Positions 7,201 through 53,064 of a stretch of 64,000 nt of DNA are shown piece by piece. Made by a program: the position numbers and the translations under genes. Position 1 is the first letter of the stretch. Every line of letters begins with the position of its first letter. Origin of the DNA: Solen grandis (Eukaryota > Mollusca > Bivalvia > Adapedonta > Solenidae); the NCBI GenBank assembly GCA_021229015.1, contig CM037789.1, forward strand, positions 40,088,926 to 40,152,925, given 5' to 3'. Below the pieces are notes generated by a model. That model was not told the origin of the DNA and ran no database searches. It saw only the letters and a list, made by a program, of their open reading frames with translations.

Positions 7201-10200
7201 TCATTCCATATTAACCCTTTCCCTCATCGAGGACACCATGAAAAGACCTATGCGAACAGCATAAAACCAGATCAGCCTGCGAGTTACTCATAATATAACC
7301 TACATTTTAGGTGGTGCCCAGAGTAAAGATATACAAATGATTAGGTTCCATGGCTTTTCTACTAATATTGTATGTTCATAAGTGTAACATTTTTAGTATA
7401 TGATTTACACTTATTTGATATTAACAAGTGTGACAAGTGAATTCTACAGCCATTTGACAACTGTCTACTTTCAGGCTGAAGTTTGAACACTACGAGGCCT
7501 TGATGAATGTGTTCATAAACAGCAAGGAAGTGGATATGCTCTGGTATGTACATGATGGAGGATGCAAAATAACACCTACAGTAATGTGTCAGCCATTATT
7601 TTGTAACCGTTTGATTGATTTTCAGTGAGACAATTCCAAAATAAATATGCATGATATGACTAGAAACATGTGTCTGTTTGATTAAGATCAAATTAGTAGC
7701 CATAATAATATCAAGCCATAAACAAAGGATTGACAGGTTGGATAGCTTTATAAACTTTACATTCCTTGATAGATACTTTAACCCTTTCCCTCATAGAGGA
7801 CACCATGAAAAGACCTATGCGAACAGCATAAAACCAGATCAGCCTGCGAGTATCATACGCGATACAGAACATAGGAAAAAGGAAAATAAACCCCAGGAGA
7901 TATGACAGTGAAACTAACATGATAACAGGAAAATCCCTTTTGAACCCCAAATTTGCTTATTCGGACTCTAACTTAATTTAGATTTATGGGATTTTAAAAT
8001 TAGCTTGCTTTATTAACCCTTTCCCTCATAGAGGAAACCATGAAAAGACCTATGCGAACAACATAAAACCAGATCAGCCTGCGAGTAACTCGCAGGCTGA
8101 TCAGGTTTTATGCTGTTTGCTGCTCCTCAGTGGTCTGGAAATGAGGATTTTGTAATTAAATTGGTAAGGTTTAACTGTGGTTTTCTGCAGATCAGGCTTT
8201 ATGTGGTACCTATTGAGTGCGTCAAAATGAGTCTATATGAGGGAAAGGGTTAAAGATAATGCTGCCTGTTGTATAGCATAAATGTATATATATGTTGCAC
8301 CTAATAACCCAATGATTTTAGAGACTTAACAACTATTTGATTGAAATAAGGAAGTATATAATTATACAGTATGTATGGGATGTCTTTGACCCTCATTTAC
8401 CTATTGACGAGGAAAACAAAATTTATCTTATCAAAAAAAAAAAGATTCTGAGTGAAGGTAAATCTCTTTATCAAGTTATGGTATTTATCTTATTTTTTGT
8501 CTGTTTATTTTCCTACAGTATATAATCAATATTTGAAAACAATTAGATTTACTTATTGGAGAAACATGATTGGAGTGTTTCAAAAATGAGCAAACAGGAC
8601 ATCAGTCTCAAAACCCTCAATTGTCTGCTGCAAATCAGGCCTTTGTGTCATTGGTAATCGCCAGATCATTGTCCTTGGTTGCCAATTAATGACATATCTG
8701 CGAATATACAGAGGCCATCCCTCCCTTACACTATGTCCCCTTGGGTGCTTAACCCTTTCCCTCATAGAGGTAACCATGAAAAGACCTATGCGAACAGCAT
8801 AAAACCAGATTAGCCTGCGAGTAACTCGCAGGCTGATCAGGTTTTATGCTGTTCGCTGCTCCTCAGTGGTCTGGAAATGAGGACTTTATAATTAAAATTT
8901 GGTAAGGTTTACTGTGGTTTTCTGCAGATCAGGCTTTATGTGGTAACTATTGAGTGCGTCAAAATGAGTCTATATGAGGGAAAGGGTTGAAGTGTACTTG
9001 TATAAGTAAATCTCACACACCAGCGTCTAAAATGTCCTACAAAAATGTGTATTGGTATAAACTTAGTGGTAATTACTGAAAAAAAAAAAAGAACAAAAAC
9101 TTAATGCTTGAGCTGGTAGCCTTACCTTAACTGGAGGAAAGGCAGCGTCATGCTCAAATATGTGGGGGTAAGAGTCTATGATAAAACGAGCAGCTCGGCG
9201 TCCTGAGGCCCGGCTGAGACTGAATACTTTCTGAAATAAAAAAAAAAAATACATTGTCAAACATGTTTACTATTTAAATAATAAAACATTAACCAGCAAA
9301 ACCTCAGACCTCAGACCACATTGGCCCACATGTACTCTGTAGAGAATACAAAGTAATACTGAAGCCACAAATAAAACAATAACTACCATTGAAGATGATG
9401 AATACCAACAGGCGCTGCACAGTTACTGTTACCATGTCAGAGACAGTCTTAACACATTAAGGATGAAAATAAAAAAATTAAGCTCTATAACATGTATTGC
9501 AGACAAAGAAAGAGCAATAATTAAAATTAAACTGATCATAACATGCCATGGATATGTGCAACCAGAGCTGGTACATTTTAAGTTGTTATGATATATGCCA
9601 ATACATAGATTTCAAGAAGTACATCAACAAACTGGTACTTGAGTAAATTAAATATATTATTTTACTTTCATGGACAATTTACCAGTGTAAATTTTGCTTG
9701 TGATACTTAAAACAAGCCAGGATTGTTTAGTTTTGATGATGTTATTGATTATTGTATTGAAATAATCTTAGACCTGTTTTAAAAATGTTTAAGCCAAAAT
9801 TTTCATTGCCAAAAAAATTGCTAGTGGTTTAAAATGTCACTCCCAAACTTCATTTTCTACTCACATTTTGCTGAAATGCAAGTGTTAATTTTGAGCCCAG
9901 CACAGCATACAAGAGTCAACTGAACAATTTACAGCCAAGGTGCATTACTTACTGCTTCTCCTGCATGTCTTGGACGAAGACCTGGATCATCAACAAAGTA
10001 GTAATGAGTGCCAGTAGGGTCCTAAAATAAGAAAAAATCTTCATGTAACTCTTCAAAATTTTGGGTCCCTAAAAGGTACCTACTCCCAATGAGAATCCAA
10101 TGCTTTCCTGAAAATCTTAGGCAAAATCAAAACCAAAATTGAAGTAAATTTTCAGATTATTGTTGCTCTAATTCTTTTAAAGGATGGAACCAGTTTCCTG

Positions 10201-13200
10201 ACAGCAGAGGACATGGTAGACCATGGAAGATGAGATCTGAATGTGTCAAGACCGACCTGAAGCTGGCGAACATTGATCAGCAAAACAGAGATGCATGAGA
10301 GAAGATGAATACTATAACCACTTGCTGCCTTACCAGAACATGAGTCACTTGCAGCCAATGAAAATTAAATCAGGATCAAGCTAACAAATGGAAAAGAAAA
10401 TGACTAAAAAAATGATAATCATACATATAATGTCAGAATACTTACACATTTAGGTACATATATCAACAAATCCTTAATTTATTGCAATTTATCCGTTTTT
10501 TAATCTGTGAAACTTGTCATTATTTTTCCAAACTTAATGAAGCCTGGTCCTTTCCCCAAATTACTATGACAACTCACATAGGACAACATCAAGTCTCCAT
10601 CAAGTCATTCTTCTAACAGAGGAGAATGCCGAGCCCTCAAGCCTCTAGTCAGTCCAAACACAGGGCTTTTTGTGTTTGAGAAGTTTTCAGTCAGAACAGC
10701 AAAAGTTGATGGGCAACTCTGACAGAATGTTTAATTTGAAATTCTCTTCTAGGTAGATCATTCTGACGGTTACAACTGATCACAACTTTTAAATAGGAAA
10801 GGCTGTGTTAGTTGTAACATGAATTTGCTATGCATAATATTTATGATTAAACAAGAGCTGTCAGAGGACAGCACGCTTGACTATTCAAAATGCTTGTTGG
10901 TAAATCAAATGAAATCTATTTCAATTCCTGCCCTTCACATACCCTGTATATAATAATAATCAAAAATGATATTCCTTGATAGTCTGATACTCCTTAATAT
11001 TTTTTTGAAATCTAAAATCAATCCCATGCCTAGTTACTGAGACATAAGCATAATAACACTATGCATGAAAAATTTAACCAAGTATCAAGTTAGAAAAAGG
11101 CCATAATTTGTATAAAATTCAGTCAAAAGTTATCCTCCTTGGTTCTGTGATGCCCCTGAATACACTCCTTAACTTTCTGGTCAATTCCATAAACAGTTTC
11201 TGAGATATAAGCTGGATAGTAGCTGGAATGCACAAATTTAACCAAAATTCTAAGTTAAAAGGGGGCCATAATTTTTAATATATTCCATCAAGTGTTATCT
11301 TCCTTTATAGTATGATACCCCTAAACATATTAAAGATGTTTCAAATCAATCCCATGTCTGGATACTGAGATATAAGCATGAAAGTACTTTGCATGCAAAA
11401 CTTTAACCAAAATTTCTAAGTTAAAAAGGGACCATAATTTGTAAAATATTCCATCAAGAATTATCTACTGTGAAAGTATGATACCCCTAAACATATTAAA
11501 GATGTTTCAAATCAATCGCATGCCTGGAACAGTCTCCATGATGAATGACATACAATTTCTTTCAATTGGTCATTCACCTTCCACACTGTACTTAAGTAAA
11601 TTGTTGGGTGAACTGCCCATCTGCTAGCCTTTGGTGGCATTAAATAATTCAAAGAAAATCAAATAAACCAAATTCCTACTGTAGAGGCCAGTGTGTATAG
11701 ATGTAGATACTTACATGGCCTATTGCAGAAGCCAATGTGTATAGATGTAGATACTTACACGGCCTACTGTAGAAGCCAGTGTGTATAGATGTAGATACTT
11801 ACATGGCCTACTGTAGAAGCCAGTGTGTATAGATGTAGATACTTACATGGCCTACTGTAGAAGCCAGTGTGTATAGATGTAGATACTTACATGGCCTACT
11901 GTAGAAGCCAGTGTGTATAGATGTAGATACTTACATGGCCTACTGTAGAAGCCAGTGTGTATAGATGTAGATACTTACATGGCCTACTGTAGAAGCCAGT
12001 GTGTATAGATGTAGATACTTACATTGCCTACTGTAGAAGCCAGTGTGTATAGATGTAGATACTTACATGGCCTACTGTAGAAGCCAGTGTGTATAGATGT
12101 AGATACTTACATGGCCTACTGTAGAAGCCAGTGTGTATAGATGTAGATACTTACATGGCCTACTGTAGAAGCCAGTGTGTATAGATGTAGATACTTACAT
12201 GGCCTACTGTAGAAGCCAGTGTGTATAGATGTAGATACTTACATGGCCTACTGTAGAAGCCAATGTGTATAGATGTAGATACTTACATGGCCTACTGTAG
12301 AGGCCAATGTGTATAGATGTAGATACTTACATGGCCTACTGTAGAAGCCAGTGTGTATAGATGTAGATACTTACATGGCCTACTGCAGAAGCCAGTGTGT
12401 ATAGATGTAGATACTTACATGGTCTACTGTAGAAGCCAATGTGTATAGATGTAGATACTTACATGGCCTACTGTAGAAGCCAGTGTGTATAGATGTAGAT
12501 ACTTACATGGTCTACTGTAGAAGCCAGTGTGTATAGATGTAGATACTTACATGGCCTACTGTAGAGTCCAGTGTGTATAGATGTAGATACTTACATGGCC
12601 TACTGTAGAAGCCAGTGTGTATAGATGTAGATACTTACATGGCCTACTGTAGAAGCCAGTGTGTATAGATGTAGATACTTACATGGCCTACTGTAGAGTC
12701 CAGTGTGTATAGATGTAGATACTTACATGGTCTACTGTAGAAGCCAATGTGTATAGATGTAGATACTTACATGGCCTACTGTAGAAGCCAGTGTGTATAG
12801 ATGTAGATACTTACATGGTCTACTGTAGAAGCCAGTGTGTATAGATGTAGATACTTACATGGCCTACTGTAGAAGCCAGTGTGTATAGATGTAGATACTT
12901 ACATGGCCTACTGTAGAAGCCAGTGTGTAAAGATGTAGATACTTACATGGCCTATTGCAGAAGCCAGTGTGTATAGACGTATATACTTGCATGTCTACTG
13001 TAGAAGCCAGTGTGTGTTGATGTAGATACTTGCCTACTGTAGAAGCCAGTGTGTATAGATGTAGATACTTACATGGCCTACTGCAGAAGCCAGTGTGTAT
13101 AGATGTAGATACTTGCATGTCTACTGTAGAAGCCAGTGTGTATAGATGTAGATACTTACATGGCCTACTGTAGAAGCCAATGTGTATAGATGTAGATACT

Positions 13201-16200
13201 TACATGGCCTACTGCAGAAGCCAATGTGTATAGATGTAGATACTTACATTGCCTACTGTAGAAGCCAGTGTGTATAGATGTAGATACTTGCATGTCTACT
13301 GTAGAAGCCAGTGTGTATAGAGACTTGTAATACTTTAATGGCTACCCTGCAGAAGCCAGTGTGTATAGATGTAGATACTTACATTGCCTATTGTAGAAGC
13401 CAATGTGTATAGATGTAGATACTTACATGGCCTACTGTAGAGGCCAGTGTGTATAGATGTAGATACTTACATGGTCTACTGTAGAAGCCAGTGTGTATAG
13501 ATGTAGATACTTACATGGTCTACTGTAGAAGCCAATGTGTATAGATGTAGATACTTACATGGCCTACTGTAGAAGCCAGTGTGTATAGATGTAGATACTT
13601 ACATTGCCTACTGTAGAAGCCAGTGTGTATAGATGTAGATACTTACATGGTCTACTGTAGAAGCCAATGTGTATAGATGTAGATACTTACATGGCCTACT
13701 GTAGAAGCCAGTGTGTATAGATGTAGATACTTACATGGCCTACTGTAGAAGCCAATGTGTATAGATGTAGATACTTACATGGCCTACTGTAGAAGCCAGT
13801 GTGTAAGATGTAGATACTTACATGGTCTACTGTAGAAGCCAATGTGTATAGATGTAGATACTTACATGGGCCCACTGTAGAAGCCATGGTGTATAGATGT
13901 AGATACTTACATGGCTACTGTAGAAGCCATGTGTAAGATGTAGATACTTACATGGCCTACTGTAGAAGCCAGTGTGTATAGATGTAGATACTTACAAGGC
14001 CTACTGTAGAAGCCAGTGTGTATAGATGTAGATACTTACATTGCCTACTGTAGAAGCCAGTGTGTATAGATGTAGATACTTACATTGCCTATTGTAGAGG
14101 CCAATGGGTATAGATGTAGATACTTACATGGCCTACTGTAGAAGCCAGTGTGTAAAGATGTAGATACTTACAAGGCCTACTGTAGAAGCCAGTGTGTATA
14201 GATGTAGATACTTACATTGCCTACTGTAGAGGCCAATGGGTATAGATGTAGATACTTACATGTCTACTGTAGAAGCCAATGTGTATAGATGTAGATACTT
14301 ACATGGTCTACTGTAGAAGCCAGTGTGTATAGATGTAGATACTTACATGGCCTACTGTAGAAGCCAGTGTGTATAGATGTAGATACTTACATGTCTACTG
14401 TAGAAGCCAGTGTGTATAGATGTAGATACTTACATGGCCTACTGTAGAAGCCAATGTGTATAGATGTAGATACTTACATGTCTACTGTAGAAGCCAGTGT
14501 GTGTAGATGTAGATACTTACATTGCCTACTGTAGAGGCCAGTGTGTATAGATGTAGATACTTACATGGCCTACTGTAGAAGCCAGTGTGTATAGATGTAG
14601 ATACTTACATGGCCTACTGTAGAAGCCAGTGTGTATAGATGTAGATACTTACATGGCCTACTGTAGAGGCCAATGTGTATAGATGTAGATACTTACATGG
14701 CCTACTGTAGAAGCCAGTGTGTATAGATGTAGATACTTACATTGCCTACTGTAGAGGCCAATGTGTAAAGATGTAGATACTTACATGGCCTACTGTAGAA
14801 GCCAGTGTGTATAGATGTAGATACTTACATTGCCTACTGTAGAAGCCAATGTGTATAGATGTAGATACTTACATGCCTACTGTAGAAGCCAATGTGTATA
14901 GATGTAGATACTTACATGGCCTACTGCAGAAGCCAATGTGTATAGATGTAGATACTTACATGGCCTACTGTAGAAGCCAATGTGTATAGATGTAGATACT
15001 TACATTGCCTACTGTAGAGGCCAGTGTGTATAGATGTAGATACTTACATGGCCTACTGCAGAAGCCAGTGTGTATAGATGTAGATACTTACATTGCCTAC
15101 TGTAGAGGGCCAGTGTGTATAGATGTAATACTTACATGGCCTACTGCAGAAGCCATGTGTAAGATGTAGATACTTACATGGCCTACTGCAGAAGCCAATT
15201 GGTATAGATGTAGATACTTACATGGCCTACTGTAGAAGCCAGGGCTTCCAAGAGAGCCGTTGGGGACCTCTTTATCTTCTTTGGGATGGTCACCTGACTT
15301 GATGGTACAGATTCAGACCAACCGTCATCCTGAATAAATGCTGTCGAGCTCTGCCCTCTTGTGCACAGGTGACAACATCTGGAGCCAGACATTGACACAG
15401 ATGTAATGAGAGTCGAAACAGCCTCAAATATTTAATAAATATTAAAAAAGGATTCAAATCTTACTAGCTCTGGGCCAAGGCATATCAGAAGTTTCTCCCA
15501 TGTTGAGGATTATACAAAAAGTTTTTTTTCTCTGAATATCAGGAGTTAGTGAATACATGCCATCAAAAAAAATATATTACTCAATATCAGTGTCTTGTTA
15601 CATGACCAGCAAGCCTTTTTACTGTGGATAGGGAGGGGGCCTTAATAGTAAATACTGTATACACAATCACTGGCATTTAAGCCATATTTTTTTTCCAAAT
15701 AATTCAGGTTTATAAAGAGGGAGCACCGTATACAATGATATACAGGTTTTCATGTGGTTTTTTTTTCCATCACTGAGAAGTGAAATTTACCAGTATACAA
15801 ATACAATCTCAGGAAATGGATATACTGAAAGCCAATTAAAATGATATGCCGTAAAATCTATACAACACCATAATCAACAATACCAGGTTATTGTTTTTGT
15901 TTTTATTAGTAATACCCTGCGTGAGAAAGTGAAACGACATGACGGAGGCCATTTTTATGTAAATAAGTTTATTTTATGGGACATGATGTTCAGGATGTAA
16001 GTTGGGGTGACAGCTGACATTGGTCCCCAGTCTGTTATTTGAAATGTGGGGACACAACTGAGTATTGCCATGAGACTGTGTCACCCTTACCCTACCTCTC
16101 CTTAAAGTAACAGTCTACTGGTAATTTTGTACCATGTAAATAAAATGGTTCACTGTATGATCAGCCATTGAGACATATGGACAGTTGTCAGCCTGTCAAA

Positions 16201-18373
16201 ATATCTGATGGCACCAATATCAAAACAGTATTTCGCCTTAAATGACGTAATAAGTGATTTTCTAATTTCTCAAACAAATAAGTTCATCTTGAAATCTAAT
16301 GTGAGCCTTATATGACATGGCCTAATCTGCTAGTATGTATGGTACTTTATGTTGGGTAGTAATAAATAAATATAAGCACTGTTTTCTCAGCTTTAGGGGA
16401 GAGAAAAACATTGCCATTGGAATTATTGCAATTTTTTGGGAAAAGTGCATGAATTTCAGAAGGGAAGACTCCTACGAAAGGCTCCCTGATGAATCTGAAT
16501 CTAATTCTTTGTAGATCCCAATACTTGGTTTTACACAGCAGAAAGAGATCTCAGCACCATTGGCGGAGGCTCTTTAAGGCATTTTTGAATGCCTCAAGTG
16601 AGCAAGCATGCACTTTATTATCAGGGAGACGATTCAAGTGAATCACATTGTCCACAAAGAATGAATTTTCATATTATTCAGAGTTTGATGATGGTATTTC
16701 CAGATCCTTTGAATTTTTGCAAAGGCCTTTTTCTAATATATTTGATGTTTCGCAGCCATTAGACTTTTTTGTTTTTATTGTTCTTTTAGGTCTGGCGCAT
16801 TTCACAAAATCTGATGTTGGCAGATAACAATAACCCCTCAACCACCATGTCAATTAATATTAATCTGAGGCTTAAAAGTCTGTCATGTATTGTACTTTCT
16901 CTTGGTTTCGGCCCTTGCTCTAGTTTCATGACCCTATAAAAGATTTGATTTTCAGCACGTGCCATTCTCGGAAATATACGCAAATGCAAGATAGTTGTGT
17001 CGTTTGTTTAGAAACCAATTTTTAATGCAAATATTTGAGATATATAAATAATTATGCAGGTTAAAAAGGAAAACTGCATAAATATCAAATTCAATCCATT
17101 TTTTTTAAGCACAAGATTGTTCTGTGGTAGTCCGCATTTATGTTTACTGTCCCTTTTATGTTGCTGTCACATGACGTATATCGTATTTTAAGTATCTCAA
17201 CTATCTTAGTTTTCCCCGTGTAGAATGTTCTTTTCTCCTCTTCTCGTGTATTTTATGCTTTGGTTACATAATTTCTTGCTTTATAAGGCCTGCTTTTTTC
17301 TCTGTTATGGGGGAGATGTCAGTAGAGCCTATCTGGTTTTGCATCGTGCACTCCCACCTTGGTTAACTATTAATTTCTTCCTTTTCTTATTTCATGATTA
17401 TTTAAGTGAACATTTCAGCACATATAAGATTGTAATTATATTTTGGTTAAAACTAATAAAATTTTGGTTTAAAAGTTATTTATTTCGGTATTAATTTCAC
17501 ACTGCCTATGCTGTCGGCCCCGCTAAATATCAATTAGTAAGCTGCTTAAATCGTTCCAAAAAGAGAACTGTGTATTAATTCAAAGCCTCTTAAAACACCA
17601 ATAAATAAGGGCTACTACAGTTCATTAGTTTTATTTTTCAATGATTTGACACTATTTTTTGTTTTAAATCAACTATTTTCTGCACATATTTTGAGTTTCT
17701 TTTTTCTTTCATTTCATGACTTGTTACAAAGCATTAAAATCCCAATGCGCACGCATGAAAATTTAACTTAAGTGTCACGAAACTAGGACAAACCATGCAA
17801 ATGTTTCTAATTCAAGGTCTTGTTTCATTTTTCATATTATCTCGGTGTTCTGCTTGTATAATCTTTTTTATGAATCTTACTGCCCATTTTGAATTCTTTC
17901 TAGTTTGTCTATATTGTCTTTCTGGTAGGAGTTCCAGATGGTAGCCCTATATTCCATTACTGATCCTACTAGTGTAATGTAGGCTGTCCTGATAAAGTGA
18001 GGATTTTCAAATTAGATCTAGGTGTTTTAATAATTCATTTATTTTGGCTTTGTTAAAATTAAGCTATTTTCTGCATTGTCATTTATTTCATCAATATGCC
18101 TACTTTCGATAACCTTTTGAAGGCATAAAAAAAAAAGACAATGATAATTAGTTTTGACAATTTTAACCTTCACAAAATTTCGCGAAAACCCAGGTCTCTA
18201 TAAGTGTCGCAAGATTCTTATTGAAATTCAACATAAAACTTGTTGCTTTAAACGGAATACACATAAATTAACTAATATCATGCATTTTATTCTGAGACTA
18301 TAATAAATTTTCTTTACCTGTGCAAATATTGACTTCTTAGCAAGAAGCTTCTCATGCCGATGGAGGCTGCCAT
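1147..18373 (-). CDS. PTCD3: PTCD3 (mitoribosomal protein mS39), gene span, 5' nine exons, 3' end outside window
   Basis: PTCD3/mS39 is a pentatricopeptide-repeat protein of the mitochondrial small ribosomal subunit, near the mRNA entry side, and is needed for mitochondrial translation. Nine exons read on the minus strand join with consistent phases into about 289 codons: 18318-18373, 15222-15378, 9953-10021, 9126-9230, 7048-7171, 6202-6331, 4006-4093, 2088-2145 and 1147-1226. The product starts with a basic, Ser/Leu-rich presequence (MAASIGMRSFLLRSQYLH). It then shows the family's conserved blocks in order: VTIPKK...ALASTV, D-P-T...YYFVDDP, AARFIIDSYP, LQERIEQRKVKDAV, LLELLC and the first PPR-like helices (AYNWMVQGMCQ, LNTWNQLL). 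Vertebrate PTCD3 is about 690 residues, so about 40% is present. The remaining exons should lie left of position 1. Intron 2 carries a 3.5-kb array of its own splice donor. Confidence 0.93.
2088..2145 (-). CDS. PTCD3: PTCD3 exon 8 (PPR second helix)
   Basis: 58 bp, 19 codons plus one base: DGKVDGLIYRDEMQEKGIP. The pattern 'x-A/V...L-Y-x-E-M-x-x-x-G-I-P' is classic for a PPR second helix and loop. The borders are a ttacag acceptor and a gtaagc donor. Confidence 0.92.
2472..3268 (+). mobile_element. Hairpin-ended repeat, family 2, with internal 148-bp duplication
   Basis: It begins aaggcagtccaaaggacagc. A block of about 148 bp (acacgaaaataacatttgac ... agcgttcatgagatatggag) occurs twice in tandem at about 2878 and 3026. 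Then come acggacggacggacgaaggg and a 3' palindrome in cccgcttcgcgg. It is in PTCD3 intron 7. Confidence 0.6.
3436..3922 (+). mobile_element. Hairpin-ended repeat, family 3 (GCTCACCTGAGC hairpin)
   Basis: It begins acaagagggccatgatggcc and has two related sub-blocks with atgaagattgggc. It ends in gcacgacggacgacgggc and the hairpin gctcacctgagc-atgttgt-gctcaggtgagc followed by taaa. A terminal hairpin next to C/G-TAA resembles Helitron 3' ends. This family is widespread in bivalve DNA; the class is inference. Confidence 0.65.
4006..4093 (-). CDS. PTCD3: PTCD3 exon 7 (PPR helices)
   Basis: 88 bp that complete a Gly codon and add 29 residues, including DLFLDLKEKTADAYNWMVQG, then MCQ. The pattern x-A-E-x-L-F...AYNWMVQGM is a PPR helix pair and sits where the family has it. 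The borders are a ttgcag acceptor and a gtaggg donor. Confidence 0.92.
4226..4708 (+). mobile_element. Hairpin-ended repeat, family 1, second copy
   Basis: It begins actagaactgccattgtcaa, carries two diverged internal repeats (cactgcact..., atgaagtttcat...), has the cagccggatggacagcc segment, and ends near ttggtataac. It lies in PTCD3 intron 6. Confidence 0.6.
5771..5985 (-). mobile_element. tRNA-derived SINE, family A, copy 1 (internal deletion)
   Basis: It shares the tail ttaccgtcgcttygacagta, caggtggaggaagaccccga and aagccagctggaaggt with three other copies. The tRNA-like head lies at the right (ggcctccatggccaagaggg on the minus strand), so the element reads leftward. The B-box region is lost by an internal deletion after ggaaggt. 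Confidence 0.75.
6202..6331 (-). CDS. PTCD3: PTCD3 exon 6
   Basis: 130 bp. After the split Gly it reads MSLSEEMKLSLLELLCVFRG, then an acidic linker (DPPEKQEPEEILQNLKSGVQP), and ends in phase 2. LL(E/D)LLC is the family motif. The borders are a cacag acceptor and a gtgagt donor. Confidence 0.92.
6426..6645 (-). mobile_element. tRNA-derived SINE, family A, copy 2 (head truncated)
   Basis: The body and the B-box half (gggatttgaacctacgcggt) are kept, but the A-box part of the head is missing. It lies in PTCD3 intron 5. Confidence 0.75.
7048..7171 (-). CDS. PTCD3: PTCD3 exon 5
   Basis: 124 bp, 41 codons plus one base. It contains ALQERIEQRKVKDAVEVYKT, the conserved Glu/Arg/Lys helix that precedes the PPR array in PTCD3. 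The borders are a gcag acceptor and a gtcagg donor (a weaker donor, gtc rather than gta/gtg). The split Gly codon completes with exon 6. Confidence 0.93.
7211..7290 (+). mobile_element. TTAA-flanked MITE, left half only
   Basis: TTAA then ccctttccctcatcgagg, through ccagatcagcctgcgagtta, stopping at the centre of the internal palindrome. Confidence 0.8.
7788..7850 (+). mobile_element. TTAA-flanked MITE, left half only, second
   Basis: The same left half (TTAA, ccctttccctcatagagg ... cagcctgcgag), again ending at the dyad centre. Confidence 0.8.
8013..8253 (+). mobile_element. TTAA-flanked MITE (piggyBac-like), intact copy
   Basis: 241 bp with TTAA at both ends, terminal inverted repeats ccctttccctcata / tatgagggaaaggg and an internal palindrome (cagcctgcgagtaactcgca and flanking arms). 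No coding capacity. TTAA targets with ends starting CCC point to piggyBac-type transposition. Confidence 0.85.
8749..8990 (+). mobile_element. TTAA-flanked MITE, copy
   Basis: Same family. The right target copy has mutated to TTGA. It is about 500 bp from the previous copy, in PTCD3 intron 4. Confidence 0.85.
9126..9230 (-). CDS. PTCD3: PTCD3 exon 4
   Basis: 105 bp, 35 codons in phase 0, from KVFSLSRASGRRAARFIIDS to HDAAFPPVK. The borders are a tttcag acceptor and a gtaagg donor. The A-R/K-F-I-I-x-S-Y-P motif is the family signature for this segment. Confidence 0.93.
9953..10021 (-). CDS. PTCD3: PTCD3 exon 3
   Basis: 69 bp, 23 codons in phase 0 (DPTGTHYYFVDDPGLRPRHA, then GEA). The borders are a ttttag acceptor and a gtaagt donor. 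The D-P-T...YYF.DDP signature follows ALASTV directly in animal PTCD3. Confidence 0.92.
10853..11545 (+). mobile_element. Dispersed repeat, family 4, with about 180-bp internal repeats
   Basis: It starts acaagagctgtcagaggaca. Three diverged units follow, each with gagatataagca, gcaaaactttaaccaa, ggccataatttg and atgatacccctaaacatatt. The usual GAC-rich 3' end is not seen, so it is probably truncated. It lies in PTCD3 intron 2, just beyond the 44-bp array. Confidence 0.6.
11675..15242 (-). repeat. 44-bp tandem array (about 80 copies) of the PTCD3 exon 2/intron 2 donor junction
   Basis: Head-to-tail units with a 44-bp period fill the 5' two thirds of PTCD3 intron 2. On the gene strand each unit reads CTGGCTTCTACAGTAGGCCA, then T, then gtaagtatctacatctatac plus aca. 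The first 21 bases are the last 21 coding bases of exon 2 (L-A-S-T-V-G-H), and the rest is the start of intron 2. Almost every unit keeps the full GTAAGT donor. Variants include cagtaggcAAT, Gly/Cys-type point changes, 42-bp units lacking gg, and three units with gcaagt. Reading past the true donor meets an in-frame TAG after 13 codons, so only the first donor makes the normal protein. Confidence 0.95.
15222..15378 (-). CDS. PTCD3: PTCD3 exon 2 (seed of the 44-bp array)
   Basis: 157 bp encoding one split codon (Arg) plus 52 residues, ending ...VTIPKK, then ALLEALASTVGH, before a gtaagt donor at 15221-15220. The IPKK...ALASTV block is strongly conserved in animal PTCD3, and joining to exon 3 gives ALASTVGH-DPTGTHYYFVDDP, as expected for the family. 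The acceptor after ...GGCTCCAG at 15379-15380 is chosen because it alone keeps frame with exon 1. The more obvious AG at about 15413 would shift the frame and reach a stop. The last 21 coding bases are the source of the intronic array. Confidence 0.88.
15379..16479. other. PTCD3 intron 1, left part: no gene seen
   Basis: AT-rich unique-looking sequence with short T runs. No exon with family similarity and no named repeat was seen. Confidence 0.5.
16480..18010 (-). mobile_element. Fossil non-LTR retrotransposon (reverse-transcriptase C-terminal end), interrupted
   Basis: Broken minus-strand frames give AYITLVGSVMEYRATIWNSY then QKDNIDKLERIQ (17870-17980), and KKSNGCETSNILEKGL and NSFFVDNVIHLNRLPDNKVH then ACSLEAFKNAL (16560-16790). 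These match the C-terminal region of CR1/Jockey-type elements (Y-x-x-L-V-x-x-x-x-E-Y-x-x-x-x-W; N-S-F-F-x-x-x-V-x-x-W/L-N-x-L-P). Stops and frameshifts show it is dead. About 850 bp of other DNA separates the parts. It lies in PTCD3 intron 1, in sense orientation. Confidence 0.7.
18318..18373 (-). CDS. PTCD3: PTCD3 exon 1 (start codon, mitochondrial presequence)
   Basis: The ATG is at 18373-18371 in a good context (CAAG before ATGG). The exon encodes 18 residues, MAASIGMRSFLLRSQYLH, plus two bases, and ends CACAG before a gtaaag donor. Arg at 8 and 13, many Ser/Leu and no acidic residue fit a mitochondrial targeting peptide. The start is chosen because the exon lies at a CpG-rich patch and its phase fits exon 2 when that exon is entered at 15378. 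Confidence 0.85.
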
Positions 18374-19771: not shown

Positions 19772-20118
19772 TGCTAAAAAATGTAAGTTTCCTGTTTAGT
19801 ATCTGTCCATGTGAGAGTATATACTCCAGACAACCATTCTAATATGTGGGTTTTCTCTACATATTCGGATTTCTCACATGGTTGAGCATACAGCACCATC
19901 TGCAAAAACAGCAGGTTTGATTTGTTATTGAGAGCTTTTTTGGCAAGTGGTTAAAAGGAATATAGTATTCACACTTACACATAATAAATGTATATCAGTT
20001 ATGCAATTTAGATTTTGACTTTTTTTAGACTGCAAACTGTAACATCAAAGACATGTGGCTGCCATACCTATTCTTATCTTTATCCCTAGACACATGGCTC
20101 CGTGTTCTCGAAAATAAA

Positions 20119-20360
20119 TTAACCCTTTCCCTCATAGAGGACACCATGATAAGACCTATGCGAACAGCATAAAACCAGATCGGCCTGCGAGTAACTCGCA
20201 GGCTGATCAGGTTTTATACTGTTCGCTGCTCCTCAGTGGTCTGGAAATGAGGACTTTATATTTAAATTTGGTAAGGTTTAAGTGTGGCTTTCTGCAGATC
20301 AGGCTTTATGTGGTACCTATTGAGTGCGTCAAAATGAGTCTATATGAGGGAAAGGGTTAA
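20119..20360 (+). mobile_element. TTAA-flanked MITE, copy
   Basis: 242 bp, TTAA at both ends, complete inverted repeats and internal palindrome. Confidence 0.85.
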
Positions 20361-20799: not shown

Positions 20800-22698
20800 T
20801 TCATCTGATGCTTAATGGACGCAGCATTATGCATAAAATATTCAAATTCCCGTTAAACTTATCTAATGTAGATATATGCGTTAAAAAAAAAAAAAATTTG
20901 TTTCCTAATGGTTCCCAGTTTTGGACTAATACTATGTGTCTTGGAAAGTCTTGATAAGTTTTAGAACCTAGTGGGGAACCAAACTTGCAACCTTTGGAGC
21001 TGCAGTTAATCATCACTACCACACCACCCTGACACCCTAAAAATCCCTCAAGTTAATGGGGTTTTTTTTACGGACAGTATTTCATAACATGACACATGAC
21101 TATATAAAATAGACTTTATTTAGCAATACCATCAAATTAGATATTAAATATTTGAAACATAAATCAATGCAATTTCATGACAAATTAAACACACTGACAA
21201 TACAGTCTTCATGCATTTACTTGTATAAAGAGAGCAGGTATTTCATCAAAAAGGAAAATTTATAGTTAAAGCAAAAAGATAACATACTGTATTATTTTTA
21301 TACGTTTAAGCTTCTTGAAGACATCATATTGTGTTAACATTTTTCATTACATGAAAGACAAAATGTTCCTTACCAATATCAGATGTAAGCATATAATCTG
21401 AAAAGGCACCCATAGACATCAGTTTTGCAAATTAAACATCAGTTTGAGTGGTGAGAGTGAAAGAGCATATATATATTGAACCACTTAGCCTAGTTTCAAT
21501 CTTACCCCTCGAATTTACTGTTCAGTAAGCAAGATTGATCAACCTAATGGAATAGTGCCGTCTTGGGGTACAGTATATCGTTAAATACAATACACATATT
21601 TACAGTTTGTAAATAATGTTTAACTATCCTCGAAATAACTAAATCTTCAAAACATTTTCATATACATCAGTAATCAAAACTTATCTGAAAGGTAACTCAT
21701 TTACTTGGAATGTGTGAGTAAAAATAAAAATCACTGATATTATGGAATGTATACTATCAAAACCAATATATAATTGGAATTTTTCATAAAATGTCTGCTT
21801 TCATTATACATATATTAGGTGATCCTATTATAGTCAGCAAGTCTTACCTTTAACTAGAAATAATCATTTTTTAAATAGATATACTGTTTTTATTGTGAAT
21901 ATTCAATGCTAAAACAAAGTAGAGAAAATGATTNNNNNNNNNNNNNNNNNNNNNNNNNNNNNNNNNNNNNNNNNNNNNNNNNNNNNNNNNNNNNNNNNNN
22001 NNNNNNNNNNNNNNNNNNNNNNNNNNNNNNNNNTTTCACAGCTTTAAATTTACCTAAATTCGCAGGTGAGATCTCCCGGATCCCCAGTCAAACCAGAACT
22101 ACACTCTTCTCACGGCTCGGGCAAAGCGGCAAGCGGCTTGCATTGTCACTGCATACATTTTTATAGCGCCCCACTCCCCTAACCTGAACTCCTGGATCCG
22201 CCACTGGATGTTAATCTCAACCACAGTGTGAAATACAAACCTGGGCCATGCGCCGGCACAATGTCTCTTCACGCTGAACAAATATTACATACGTTAAAAT
22301 TTTATATATAAAAATCCTTCAAAGTATGTCTTTCTTTCCACCTTTGACCTTCAGTCTCTAAGAATGACTTTTACCTTGGAGATATGAACCCGGGTCAAGC
22401 AACTGCATGTCGGGTCAGCATGGCTGAAAACCTGTACATGTATCAATGTCTGAGATAGTTGCACATCTCCGAAAGAGAATCTGGTTGAATCCACGGGGCT
22501 CGAAATTAGGACGAATAATATGATCGTATAATGGTAACATTAAAAAAAAGCAAGGGAGGACACCGTTTTGAATATTTTTCGTGCAAATTAGTAATGTTCA
22601 TTTACATTTGAAATTAATTAAAATAAAGAATCTAGACAGTTCCCGTGTTGTATTTACTCTTATAAATAATAAATTTGTGCTTTAAACTTCAAATCAAG
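20800..22698. other. Spacer with gap: no supported exon
   Basis: Mostly AT-rich. 22150-22210 holds a fragment seen in many invertebrate repeats (agtggcggatccaggagtt on the minus strand). The 3' exons of the NTR gene are expected somewhere between here and 24.09 kb, but none could be read. Confidence 0.5.
21934..22033. other. Assembly gap (100 N)
   Basis: Exactly 100 N, the usual scaffold placeholder for a gap of unknown size. A 3' exon of the NTR gene could be hidden here. Confidence 1.
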
Positions 22699-24095: not shown

Positions 24096-32866
<8,771 letters not shown>

Positions 32867-45346: not shown

Positions 45347-45397
<51 letters not shown>

Positions 45398-47344
45398 TTT
45401 TTGGGGGGGGGGGGGGGGGGTTTTAATGGGGGGATTGGTGTGGTGGTTTTGGGGGTGGTGGTTTGGGGGTTATGAAAAAAAAGCCTGGTATCATTTGTTC
45501 CCAAGCATAATGAAGAAGAAGGGACGTAAAAGAACAATTAGTGGGGTAATTTTAAAATTAAAAAACGTTTTTAAAGGGGGGAAAAATTTTAAACCCCTTT
45601 TAAAAAAAGGGCAGGGTTTTTCAGCCTACAGCTTCCATATATAGTGGCGGGGCCCCCAAATTTTTTAAACCCCGGGCAGAAAATTGTGAATGGGAAGTTT
45701 TTGGTTTATTTTGCACCCGGGAGCGCTATAAATACTGTCCATGCAGGAAGGCGGGAGTGTTTTTGGGGCACTGAAAAAAAAAAAGGGGGGAAAAGAAAAA
45801 GGGGGAAAAAAAAAACAAACAAAAAAAACCCCCACCCCTCGTCCTAATACTGTTGAGTTTTCTCTTATATTTTAAATTTTCTCTTTATATGTACATGTAA
45901 TTGTTTATCCTCCTCTTACCCCCCCTTCCCCCCTCACATTCCCATATATAAAAATATTGATTTGTCTTTGTTGTTTAAATCTTTTTTCCCCCAAATTTTT
46001 AAAATTTTTTCACCAAAATTTTAAAAACAAAAACCCTTTTTTTTAAAAATTTTTTGTATGCTGCCCGGAACTCTCAATTATGTAAAATTTATTTTTTTTT
46101 TGTACAAACCCCCCTTTGTTGCATTTTGTAGCCTGGGTGAAATAAAAAATTTGTTTTGTTCGGGTTCTGTTCAAAAATTTAAAAGTTAAAAAAAAAGGGG
46201 GAATTTGGGAAAAACTTCCTCCCTTTAAAATAATTAGAATTTAAAAAGGGGTGTTGGGCCTTTCATAAAAAAAACAAGTCAGTCAGGACTGACCGAGAGA
46301 AATGCAGAGGGGGGGAAAGTCGAGAAAAGTTCATGTTTGGGAGCTGAGCAAACCCAGTCTATGGTTTTTTTTTAGTGTAGGTGTATCCCCTTTATAGTGG
46401 AAAAAGTTTTGTGAAAAAAAACTTCCCAAACCACTTATACGATCAGTGGGGGGGTTTTGGAAATAAATTTTGTTATTAAAAAAAGATTTGGGGTTCACGT
46501 TAAAACCCCCTCCCCCTTTTTTAACAGGGCTTTTTAGTGATATGGATAAATCTTTTATCCTGTCATTGAAATTTTCTTTTATTAGATTTCAAAAATTTAA
46601 AAAAATTTTTGGATTGGGATTTTCCTCGGCTTTTTTTTTTTTTTCCCAAAACCGCCATATTTTGGTCACGGGTTTTTTAAAAAATTCTCACGTGACTTGT
46701 GTGGTAACATGGTTAAAGCAGCGTACGTTACATAACCAGTGCGCGGAGTTTGTCACGTGACTGAAAAACCCGGTTAAAATTTTAATTTTTATTTAATTGG
46801 GGACTTCCCTGGTTATACCTAACGATTCTGTTGACGTCGATTTGATGACTTAAACAAATGTCAATTGAGCGACCCTCTATACGTGTGTCAGATTCAGGTA
46901 CCCCCATGAATGAATTTTTTAAAAAAAGGGCTGAATTTCAAACTTTAAATTTCATAGAACTAAGTCGGGATTACATTTCTTGAAGGTGACGGTATTTCAG
47001 AAAAAAAATTTAAAAAATGTGCGGTGTAATCAGTTTTACAAAACCCCCGTTCCCCCAAAAAAAAATGTTAAAAATTTTTGTTGCCCAAAAAAAATGAAAA
47101 AAAGGGGGAAGAAAAAAGGGGGGAAAAAAAAGAAAAAAAAAAAAAAAAAAAACAAAAAAAAAAACAAAAACGGCAAACAAAAAAAAAAAAAGGGGAAAAA
47201 AAAAAAAAAAAAAGGGGAAAAAATTTAAACAAAAACCCTAAAAAAAAGATAAAAAAAAAAGAATTTTCGGAATTTTGGAATTTTTTTTTTTCCCCCCCTT
47301 ATTTAAAAAACAACCGGCCCGATTTTTAAAAAATGGTTTTTTTT

Positions 47345-47383
<39 letters not shown>

Positions 47384-47635
47384 TTTTTTCTTGCCCCCAA
47401 AAAAAAAAACAAAAAAAATTTTAAAAAAAAACGGATTTTTTAAAAAAAACCAAGTATTCCTAAAAATTTGAGGGGGTTTTTAAAGGGAAACCTTTTTTTT
47501 TTTTTAAAATTTTGAAAATTTTCCCAAACCCTTTTGGGTTTTTTAAATTAAAAATTTTTTTCTTTTATGAAGTTAATTTTGGGCACAGGGGAATTTTTTT
47601 TAATTTTTCAAACCCTTTCCTTTAAAAATTTTTTT

Positions 47636-47669
<34 letters not shown>

Positions 47670-49045
47670 ACTTTTTAAAAAATACATACATGGAAATGGG
47701 GTTTTTTAATTTTTCCCCCGTTTTTGTAAAATAAAAAAAATTTTTTTAAAATTTTTTTAAAAAATTTTTTTAAAAAAAAACCATGAAAACAGGCCGGGGG
47801 GAGAAAAAATTTCAAAAATTAAAAAATTTTAAAGGCCTTTTTCCCCCAAAATAATGATTTAAAAAAAAAATTAAAAAAAAAAAAAATTATATATAAATAT
47901 TTAAAAATTTTAAAGGGTTTTAAAAAATTTTTCAAAAATAAATTTTTTAAAAAAAGTTTTTTTGTTTGTTTAAATTTTTTTAAAAAAAAACAAAATGTTT
48001 ATAAATCTTTGGAAAAAAAAAGATGTGACAAAAAGGGGGGGGTTTTTTTTTTACTGTATGGGGAAAATGGGGAAAATATCTAATATAAAAATATTTTTTG
48101 GGCCTGGGGGGAAAAAAGTATCACGTTGCTTCTGGCCCCCCTTCACTAGCGTAAGGGATTTTAAAGGGGGAACTTTTTTTTAAAGGGAAAAAAAAAATTT
48201 TCCAGAAAAAATCAGTTATTATTAATTTTTTATCTTTTTTTATATCTCATTTTGTTTGATAGGTAATTATTTTTTTTAAAAAGGATATTTAAAAATTTTC
48301 CTTTAAATTTAAAGTGAAATAACCAAATTTTTTTCCCTGTTTAATGGGATTTGGTTCTGTGGGGCCCCTCTTTCTAAACCCCAAATGGTCTTTTCGTACC
48401 TTTGTTTTTAAAATTGACCGTGGGTTTTTTTTATTAGAAAAAATTTGTATCTAAAAATTTAAAAGGCAATTTTTTTTAATCCGTGGCGGGGGGGAAAACG
48501 GGTCATTTTTTTTATAATAGGGTTTTCATAAAAAAGCCTTTGTCGTTCTAAAAATCGAGGGTATTGTTAAATTTGAGGGTTCTGTTCATATGTTTTTTAG
48601 ACAGAAAAGGGAAAAAAATTTTCGCAAAATTTGGGGAAGGGGGGTTAAATTGGCCCGAAAGGGAAACACCGAAAGGGGTAGAATTAAAAATTTACCCCGT
48701 GGTTCATTTTTTTCAAAAAAGTTTTGCGTTTGGGTCAAAAAATGTTTACACTTCCCCCTTTGGGCGCGGATTATAAGAACCCCTCATGGCGTTATGAAGG
48801 ATGGGGAAACCCCTTTAAAGGAGGATCAGAAATCCCGGGAAAGGGGGAGGTTGGTTTAAACCCAAACCCAAAAAAACTCATATCTTTAAAATTTTAAAAT
48901 AAATACGTTTTCCCCCCCCCCCGGGTGTTCTTTTTTCCACATGGGGGAAAAACCAATTTCAAGTCGAGTACAAATTTTAAAATTTTTACGGTTGATAAAA
49001 GGAGAATTGGAGGATTAAAAAATTGGTGTTTTGACGATGTGCTCT

Positions 49046-49299
49046 AAAAAACCCCTTTTCCCCTTCATATAGATCATTTTGACGCAAAAAAAGGGGCCCA
49101 AAAAAAGCCTGATCTGCAGAAAACCCATTTAAAAACCCTTTCCAAATTTTTTAAATTTCAAAATCCTCTTTTTCCGGGGCCCCTGAGGAGAAGAACAGCT
49201 AAAACCTGATCAGCCTGCGAGAAAAACCGCGGCTGATTGGTTTTTTGTTGTTCGTTTAGGTCTTTTCAGGGGGGCCCCTTTTATGACGGAAAGGGTTAA
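49046..49299 (-). mobile_element. TTAA MITE copy inside the homopolymer-rich block
   Basis: It is recognisable by agcctgatctgcagaaaac, cctgatcagcctgcgag and gaaagggttaa. Many heteropolymer stretches are replaced by runs such as aaaaaaaggggccc. It serves as a ruler for sequence quality here. Confidence 0.7.
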
Positions 49300-50618
49300 C
49301 AGGGAAATTTACTTTTGGTTTTCCCACGATGTTGTTTGGCCACGCAAACCCAAAAATTTCCCTTATCCCCAAATTTAAAAATTTTTTAAATACCTGATGG
49401 GTTTAAAAAAACCCAAACAAAAAAAATTAAAAAATTAAATTTTTAATTCATATTAACAAACCCCCCAGCTTTTTTTTTCCACTTTCTCAAAGGCGTTGTT
49501 TTTATTTTTTTAATTTTTGAGCATGCGGGGTTTTCCCAATACGAGTTTTTCAGCTGTCTGTTGTACGACGGGACTGTCATAATTTTGGGGGAAAGTCTTG
49601 TTTACCTGGAATGCGGTTAAAAATTATTTGGGGGTTAGGAAACGTTGGTTACTTAATACATGGTGAAGCAAAAAAAAATTTTAAAAACATCCCCCAAAAA
49701 AAAAGGGGTTCCCCCAAAAAAAGGTCCTATGACTAACCTTCCTTTTGTACAGACCTTGGTCCCCAAAACCCCCCGGAGTGGACTGGGGGGCCCCCCCCAA
49801 ATCCCACAAAAAAATTACCACGTGACCCTGATAAAGTACCCCCAAATCACGCTGTTGAAATTTTTTGTGTTTTTCTGAATCGGCTATTTTCACATTGTGG
49901 GAGGATTGTTTCAAAAAATTTCCCCCCTTTTAGATTGACCTGGGGGCCTGTGCCGCAGAATGTATTTTAACACTGAACAATAATGCAATGCGTCAAGTTT
50001 TTGAATTTTTTTTTTCGGGGGGAAAAAACAGTAAACACCCCTATGACCCAAACTCCCCGTATTTTCCTAGGCCAAAGCCTAATGGGGACAATTGTACAAA
50101 TTATTAAAAAAGAGGGAAAATTTTTATTTGTACAAAGAAAGATTTTTACAAAAATTTTTTAATTTTATATTTTTTTTTTTATAAAAAATAAAAAAGTCAT
50201 CCGCTCTTCCCCCTTTAAAAATTTTTGGGGGACTTATGGGCCTTCTAATATTGTTAACCAGGTTTTCCGAAGGGGGAAACTCTGGTTTTAGTTTTTGGGG
50301 TTTTGGCGGCGGGGGGCGTTTTAAAAAATTTCTTCTGTGCGCAATCCTCCTAATTTTTCAACGGATTTGGGCCCCCCCCAAAAATTTCAGAAGCATAATT
50401 ACATAGTGGGGGCGCATATTTTTGGGTTTGTTTTTTGGGGACTATTTTTGAGGGGTTATGGCCCTTTGCCCCCTTTTAAGGAAATAAATTTTAAAAAGGG
50501 GAAATTTTTTTTCGTTTCACAAAAAAATTTCATTTTTAATAAATATGATGTTTCCTTGTTTTGTAAAAAATTTTTTGTGACTCCATTTACGGTTTTGGAG
50601 GGTTTCGCTTAAAAATTT

Positions 50619-50659
<41 letters not shown>

Positions 50660-51383
50660 TTTTTCTCCCCCTTTTTGGGGGTCAAAAAGGTTTAGGAGTT
50701 GTGCTTTAAGAATTCGGATTGACAGACAGACAGACAACTGGTAATTCCTATATACCCCCCCAAAAAAAAAAAGTAGAAATTTTGTTAAAGTGATGTTTTT
50801 TGTGACCCTTTTCAGAAGCAGATTTTTGCATTTATTATTATGTCTTGGTTTAAAGTTAATGTGGATAAATGTAAGTTAAAAATTTCCCTTTTTGCAAAAA
50901 TTTTTTTTATGTTTGCTTTATACAGGGAAATTTCATTAGATTTAATAGACTTGGCACAAAATTTTTTGACTGATTCAAATTTTTGTAAAGGGGCGAAACA
51001 TTGCCCAAAGAAAACCCCCTTTTGTGAAAATACCTGTCACTTTTCATGAATTATTTCACAAAAATCCTTCATTTAGCTTTTTTTTTGTTTTTTTTAAAAC
51101 ACAAAGGGCATGTATTTTGTAGGGTTCGAACACAAATGGCACGTTTTTGGGTATATTTGTGTCTTTTGAACAAAAAGGGCACGTTTTAAAAATAGATTTC
51201 GTTTTTTCCAAAATTTTAAAATGGAAATTTTTTTTGTTTTTTGTTTTTTTAGATTTCGCACATGAATGGAAAAATTTTTTTTGGGTTTAAGGGAAAAATA
51301 TGACTGACGTGCCAAGTGACTAAGATTCTCGCTCTGATGGGGCTTGAACCCAAAAAGAAACAAAAAAAGGGAAAAAATTTTAG

Positions 51384-51426
<43 letters not shown>

Positions 51427-51865
51427 GGGCCCCCCATATGGGTATCCCCTTTTTTTTCCCCGTAATAGGGGGAACGGGGTCGGGGAGCTCCTCGTTGACC
51501 GTACAATGAACTAACTTTCAATAAATTATAAAAAAATTTAATACAGAGAAAAAAAAAAAATTTAAATTTTTTTAATTTGTATTAAATTTTAACCTTTATG
51601 GGCATTTATTTTTTTTTTGGGTTGAAAATACAAACAAAATTAATAATAATGAAAAAAGAAAAAAAACTAAAGTAAATTGTTCTTCACATGTGATTAACAT
51701 TAAAAGTTTTTAATATTCAAAATTCCCGAATTGGTCAGTAGAGTATTGAATTAAAAGTTACGCCCCAACAAATATTCCCAAATTTTTTTTCCTGGGTTTA
51801 ATATTTTCTGGGGCGTAAGCAATTTTTACGCAGAGGTTATAGAATAAATATCGAGTTTTTTTTTT

Positions 51866-51921
<56 letters not shown>

Positions 51922-52964: not shown

Positions 52965-53064
52965 NNNNNNNNNNNNNNNNNNNNNNNNNNNNNNNNNNNN
53001 NNNNNNNNNNNNNNNNNNNNNNNNNNNNNNNNNNNNNNNNNNNNNNNNNNNNNNNNNNNNNNNN
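52965..53064. other. Assembly gap (100 N)
   Basis: Exactly 100 N. Sequence character changes sharply across it: homopolymer-rich to the left, ordinary to the right. Confidence 1.

Follow-up and report, generated by a model that had tools for sequence, protein, structure and literature searches.

A tandem array of 5′ splice sites in a PTCD3 intron of Solen grandis as a probable junction-seeded minisatellite

Introduction

What is a run of some 80 near-identical 5′ splice sites doing at the head of an intron of PTCD3, and how did it come to lie there? We addressed this question in a 64,000-nt stretch of the Solen grandis genome (hereafter the window; GC content 34.3%), in which the gene is carried on the minus strand. 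The locus represents a very long natural array of near-identical competing 5′ splice sites, set in a housekeeping gene, and it lends itself to testing how the donor nearest the exon prevails. The evidence assembled below makes it very probable that the array is a minisatellite seeded at the exon–intron junction, of the type known as mirages, and that it is tolerated because the donor next to the exon is preferred.

Results

The PTCD3 junction and its array

A sequence-only reading of the window had assigned the gene to PTCD3 from its translation, and this identity was confirmed on three sides: 13 mS39/PTCD3 chains of solved mitoribosomes in the PDB were matched (best E = 2.3e-07), seven joined exon pieces matched the Pfam family Rib_mS39_PPR (PF22330, E = 6.5e-42), and a nematode mS39 homologue was recovered as the sole match of a search for relatives. 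The exon that borders the array ends in ..TALLEALASTVGH, the intron opens with gtaagtatctac at 15221 on the minus strand, and the acceptor ..ttttag lies at 10023-10022, where it had been placed before, with the next exon starting at 10021 in phase 0. Protein homology crosses this junction without a gap in the three alignments listed of the 13 matched PDB sequences, and the conserved LASTV..D.T spans it. The earlier description of LASTVGH as a conserved block held only in part: LASTV is identical in those three listed PDB alignments (of 13 matched), and the nematode homologue, which reads IKRSPTALLEALASTVGTDPT at the junction, includes LASTVG, whereas in those three PDB chains GH is replaced by NR or HR.

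Table 1. Features of the PTCD3 junction and its array, in coordinates of the window
Feature	Position	Strand	Basis or remark
Minisatellite	11675..15242	minus	TRF and wrap-around alignment; units mostly 44 nt, each of 21 exon-derived and 23 intron-derived bases
Units 70-81, distal	11692..12219	minus	9 of 12 identical to consensus
Units 44-52, holding all 5 units without GTAAGT	12968..13359	minus	Wrap-around alignment
Exon-proximal donor gtaagt	15216..15221	minus	Sole one of 80 G[T/C]AAGT sites whose reading frame remains open in the following exon
PTCD3/mS39 exon ending ..TALLEALASTVGH	15222..15422	minus	Translation, splice context and PDB mS39 chains; the 5′ end at 15422 is a guess
Remaining intron to acceptor ..ttttag	10022..11674	minus	
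Next PTCD3 exon, DPTGTHYYFVDDPGLRPRHAGEA, phase 0	9953..10021	minus	Aligned with mS39
Following PTCD3 exon, KVFSLSRASGRRAARFIIDSYPHIFEHDAAFPPVK, donor gtaagg	9126..9230	minus	Within the Pfam Rib_mS39_PPR match

Across the whole window, TRF reported the array with a period of 44, 81.4 copies, 93% matches and a score of 6210, and wrap-around alignment resolved it into 81 full units plus one truncated distal unit, in agreement with the roughly 80 copies counted at first. Unit length is exactly 44 nt in 65 of the 81 units. As had been proposed, and as the homology across the junction bears out, each unit joins the last 21 coding bases of the exon to the first 23 bases of the intron, and the array abuts the exon with no spacer. 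Unit 1 is the exon end itself: its exonic half is the last 21 bases of the exon (15242-15222), so that 15222 is the last coding base and the donor begins with the one after it. Together the full units account for 68% of the 5,200-nt intron.

Origin of the array

Several features support the view, already put forward in the first description, that the array arose from the exon and not the reverse. The exon-derived part of the unit represents ancient coding sequence, since the nematode homologue keeps that stretch at the same place. The copies, in turn, are non-coding and free of coding constraint, as their exonic halves show no excess of changes at third codon positions (60/15/21 at positions 1/2/3; 50/14/18 for substitutions alone). 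Moreover, the 21 bases in the exon itself are identical to the unit consensus, which would fit an exonic source combined either with a fairly young array or with continuing exchange between array and exon.

The reverse order of events, in which a pre-existing satellite or transposon-borne repeat was inserted and the exon end was derived from it, has some precedent in the abundance of other tandem arrays in the window, and MITEs bearing tandem repeats have reportedly been found in a clam. Even so, we consider this order highly improbable, because the exonic half, being common to the mS39 chains and the nematode homologue, predates the array, and because none of the ten inverted pairs detected in 9900-17500 (16-27 nt, 70-88% complementarity) sits at the array's two edges. 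In the nearest flanking pair, 11277-11293 is matched to 15297-15313, which lies in the exon. A transposon origin was rejected on the same search, in which the flanks were taken both apart and together. Pattern scans of viral_contigs returned 0 matches, a result of little weight for an animal genome.

On the reading we prefer, a 44-bp segment across the PTCD3 exon–intron junction would have been duplicated in tandem, and the duplicate would then have expanded to about 80 copies, presumably by unequal exchange or slippage. Because the copies sit on the intron side, the genuine end of the exon is still provided by the first of them; what has grown is an intron already present, and no new intron is evident. 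The locus is likewise suited to asking how introns are extended by junction minisatellites with no obvious harm. One feature counts against this reading: the distal edge of the array falls within the exon-derived part of a unit, so that the founding duplication is not reconstructed.

The internal order of the units bears on how the array grew. Thirty-eight distinct unit types occur in non-periodic order among the 81 units, and 23 of the 81 equal the consensus, 9 of these within the last 12 units, which suggests that distal units 70-81 are probably the most recent expansion. Mean pairwise differences per block of nine units range from 2.4 to 4.6 in units 1-54 and from 1.1 to 1.5 in units 55-81, and the blocks that make up units 64-81 stand at just 1.1-1.2, making the distal end the most homogeneous. 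Uneven diversity along the array is what local expansion predicts, and the blocks do differ, with the lowest values distally. A shared-run test gave no higher-order repeats, the best shared run comprising three units with two non-consensus members.

The same 38 types in non-periodic order would be hard to obtain from a mis-assembled single copy, and they make it very unlikely that the array is an assembly artefact concealing a real genome with one or a few junction copies. Parts of the window do look badly assembled (a 349-base run of T in another array, six more homopolymers of at least 30 bases and two gaps of 100 N), and the number of copies may yet be wrong.

Donor sites and reading frame

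Within the 81 full units the donor hexamer is GTAAGT in 76, GCAAGT in 3 and TAAAGT in 1, and in the remaining 1 its first two bases are lost, in line with the original remark that nearly every unit keeps GTAAGT. All of units 1-43 carry the exact hexamer. A plain scan for G[T/C]AAGT found 80 sites (76 GT and 4 GC); three of the four GC sites are aligned donors, and the fourth we take to arise at the deletion. When each site was spliced in silico to the exon that follows, a single frame remained open, that of the donor at 15221, and the other 79 of the 80 all ran into one common stop, a TAG that is the 13th codon after the junction, exactly as had been claimed for every donor but the proximal one. 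Since only one donor is readable, mis-splicing would be easy to score. A CAG also precedes the donor by 8 nt in 77 of the 81 units, and an 8-nt microexon is therefore conceivable; it would begin with TAG and stop at once.

Most likely, then, the spliceosome would use the donor at 15221 nearly always, and the other copies would be removed with the 5.2-kb intron. A later donor, if used now and then, would lead to the early stop, and the transcript would probably be destroyed by nonsense-mediated decay (NMD). The array may accordingly be close to neutral, given that such rare transcripts are probably lost to NMD, and it is most likely a tolerated by-product.

The shared stop also lends itself to a regulatory account, in which the donors from the second unit onwards compete with the first, each use of them ends in a stop and NMD, and copy number sets the dose by which PTCD3 output is lowered or tuned. 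That 79 of 80 donor-like sites reach the same early stop is what this account would expect, but the donors show no trace of having been selected against, units 1-43 being GTAAGT throughout, and amphioxus mirages are reported, in the accessible parts of two papers, without disturbance of splicing (PMC3087553, PMC3902484). We hold dose tuning to be unlikely.

Variation between the exonic and intronic halves

If the array recruited U1 snRNP to the nascent transcript, selection should keep the intron half of the unit, above all positions +3 to +8, while the exon half drifts. U1 pairing extends to +8, and in such a putative platform the 76 perfect GTAAGT sites within 3.5 kb would protect the intron from premature polyadenylation or aid elongation. 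Several observations agree with this expectation. Cells differing from the consensus number 96 of 1,701 in the exonic half and 25 of 1,863 in the intronic half, and among the 44 possible rotations none gives a stronger contrast than the one that cuts at the true junction (site permutation, P = 0.006; rank test, P = 0.045). Plain neutrality does not predict this contrast, which counts against the preferred reading of a tolerated minisatellite. Positions +3 to +8 (AAGTAT) are invariant in 81 of 81 units, the longest stretch of the unit to be free of change, with a permutation value of 0.023 for a six-base run within +1 to +8 and of 0.26 for one anywhere in the unit. Poly(A)-signal hexamers, finally, number four in the rest of the PTCD3 intron and one in the array.

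Other counts point the opposite way. The two halves hold similar numbers of distinct variant types (17 exonic versus 15 intronic; rank test, P = 0.25), positions +1 and +2 do vary, and the GTAAGT hexamer has 7 changed cells, so that 12 of the 44 circular hexamers, itself included, vary equally little or less. Furthermore, these tests were chosen after the data had been seen, and the units share descent and hence are not independent. We therefore regard the constancy of the intron half and its invariant +3 to +8 run as weak hints of constraint on that half, and a U1 platform as distinctly unlikely. Conservation of the donor half between species, if found, would point to a function of arrays of this kind.

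Predicted folding of the array

Local RNA folding offers one reason why the proximal donor may win over its copies. In all eight settings (8/8) the exon-proximal donor was predicted to be more accessible than any other among the 76 GTAAGT donors (for example, a computed accessibility of 0.046 against a median of 0.0055), and in a homogenised array the first donor again ranked 1 of 81. When the upstream sequence was shuffled, 21 of 30 trials placed the first donor above the interior ones; the ratio had a median of 1.9 and a minimum of 0.19. This accessibility is a computed tendency only and may partly reflect an edge effect, the first unit having no upstream unit to pair with. RNA structure as a signal in its own right was tried and rejected: a 646-nt stretch folded much better than 20 dinucleotide shuffles (z = −8.1), but against the fairer control of tandem copies of shuffled units, 54 of 200 folded equally well or better. 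As single-strand DNA the unit showed nothing special (z = 0.00 and −0.06), and a two-unit piece gave z = −1.96.

Relation to known boundary repeats

Comparable repeats have been described in amphioxus, whose GC content of about 41% differs from the 34% found here, and in the human gene IFI6 (6-16), whose minisatellite has a 12-bp unit; Canestro et al. 2002 is said to be the original paper on the amphioxus Adh mirage, and Turri, Cuin and Porter 1995 reportedly described the IFI6 minisatellite with its multiple splice donors. The sequence-only reading had set the PTCD3 array in the context of intron gain and left both of these unnamed; the framing is not new, as the accessible text of the sources already describes the class. 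In the Rogers model of intron gain by AG/GT-bearing duplication, as discussed in part of PMC3087553, splice signals are likewise duplicated in tandem beside the exon, but here it is an existing intron that has grown.

Amphioxus mirages are tandemly duplicated exon–intron boundaries, reported in the available sections of PMC3087553 from Adh3 and from the globins BflGb6 and BflGb9, with units of 10-72 bp in Adh3 and of about 150-160 bp in the globins. The PTCD3 array shares with them, as they appear in those sections, a repeat that crosses the boundary, splice signals within many units (GTAAGT in 76 of 81) and an authentic boundary kept beside the copies, and its 44-bp unit lies inside the described size range. 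RT-PCR there suggested that regular splicing was undisturbed, although the authors also noted that AG/GT-bearing mirage repeats could act as cryptic sites, a point that counts against the preferred reading (PMC3087553, accessible text). A second source, again as far as its accessible text goes, states that Adh and TnC mirages make no aberrant mRNAs and mentions similar imperfect repeats in PGBD5 (PMC3902484). Length and somatic instability of mirages are noted as well, and homogenisation is uneven in both systems (1.1 to 4.6 mean differences over nine blocks here), with the distal edge the most homogeneous part here and the boundary units left out of homogenisation in amphioxus (PMC3087553, in part). 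The difference in scale is considerable, BflGb6 haplotypes having 6 and 3 units on the acceptor side against 81 full units on the donor side here; beside these globin numbers, taken from part of PMC3087553, the PTCD3 array is a known kind of repeat of unusual length.

IFI6 provides a parallel on the donor side, being a minisatellite at an exon end whose units carry splice donors. According to a statement in PMC4526556, two downstream repeat units are used there as donors, giving three mRNA species. This use of repeat donors argues by analogy against the preferred reading, whereas in PTCD3 every donor but the first leads to a stop in silico, so that no downstream donor (79 of 79 beyond the first of 80) would yield a readable mRNA of the IFI6 type. 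Literature searches turned up no mollusc case of a boundary-spanning array, which is no proof of absence.

Other repeats in the window

Minisatellite growth appears to be common in this region, as two other long arrays lie in the window and nearly adjoin each other, at 24164-27092 (55 bp × 53) and 27191-28779 (33 bp × 48); three stretches at their edges, read by eye, contained no evident exon junction. A run of 349 T at 25588-25936 inside the 55-bp array may be a biological insertion or an assembly fault. Homopolymers of at least 30 bases number seven in the window, six of them at 45347-51921, with odd ORF letters at about 42-52 kb; this part resembles long-read data with insufficient error correction. 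Two tracts of exactly 100 N, at 21934-22033 and 52965-53064, mark scaffold gaps. Nine other ORFs of the window, hand-picked among the long ones, gave no Pfam family at E 0.01 (0 of 9). Shortly past the array, the PTCD3 intron contains a second tandem repeat, at 10959-11528, with a period of about 165 bp and partial copies (TRF row 11200-11528). A dispersed repeat element is suggested by translated motifs that recur at 7660-7956, 8583-8843 and 20118-20357 (TRRLIWFYAVRIGLFMV.SMRERVK on the minus strand and NPFPHRGHH.KTYANSIKPD on the plus strand).
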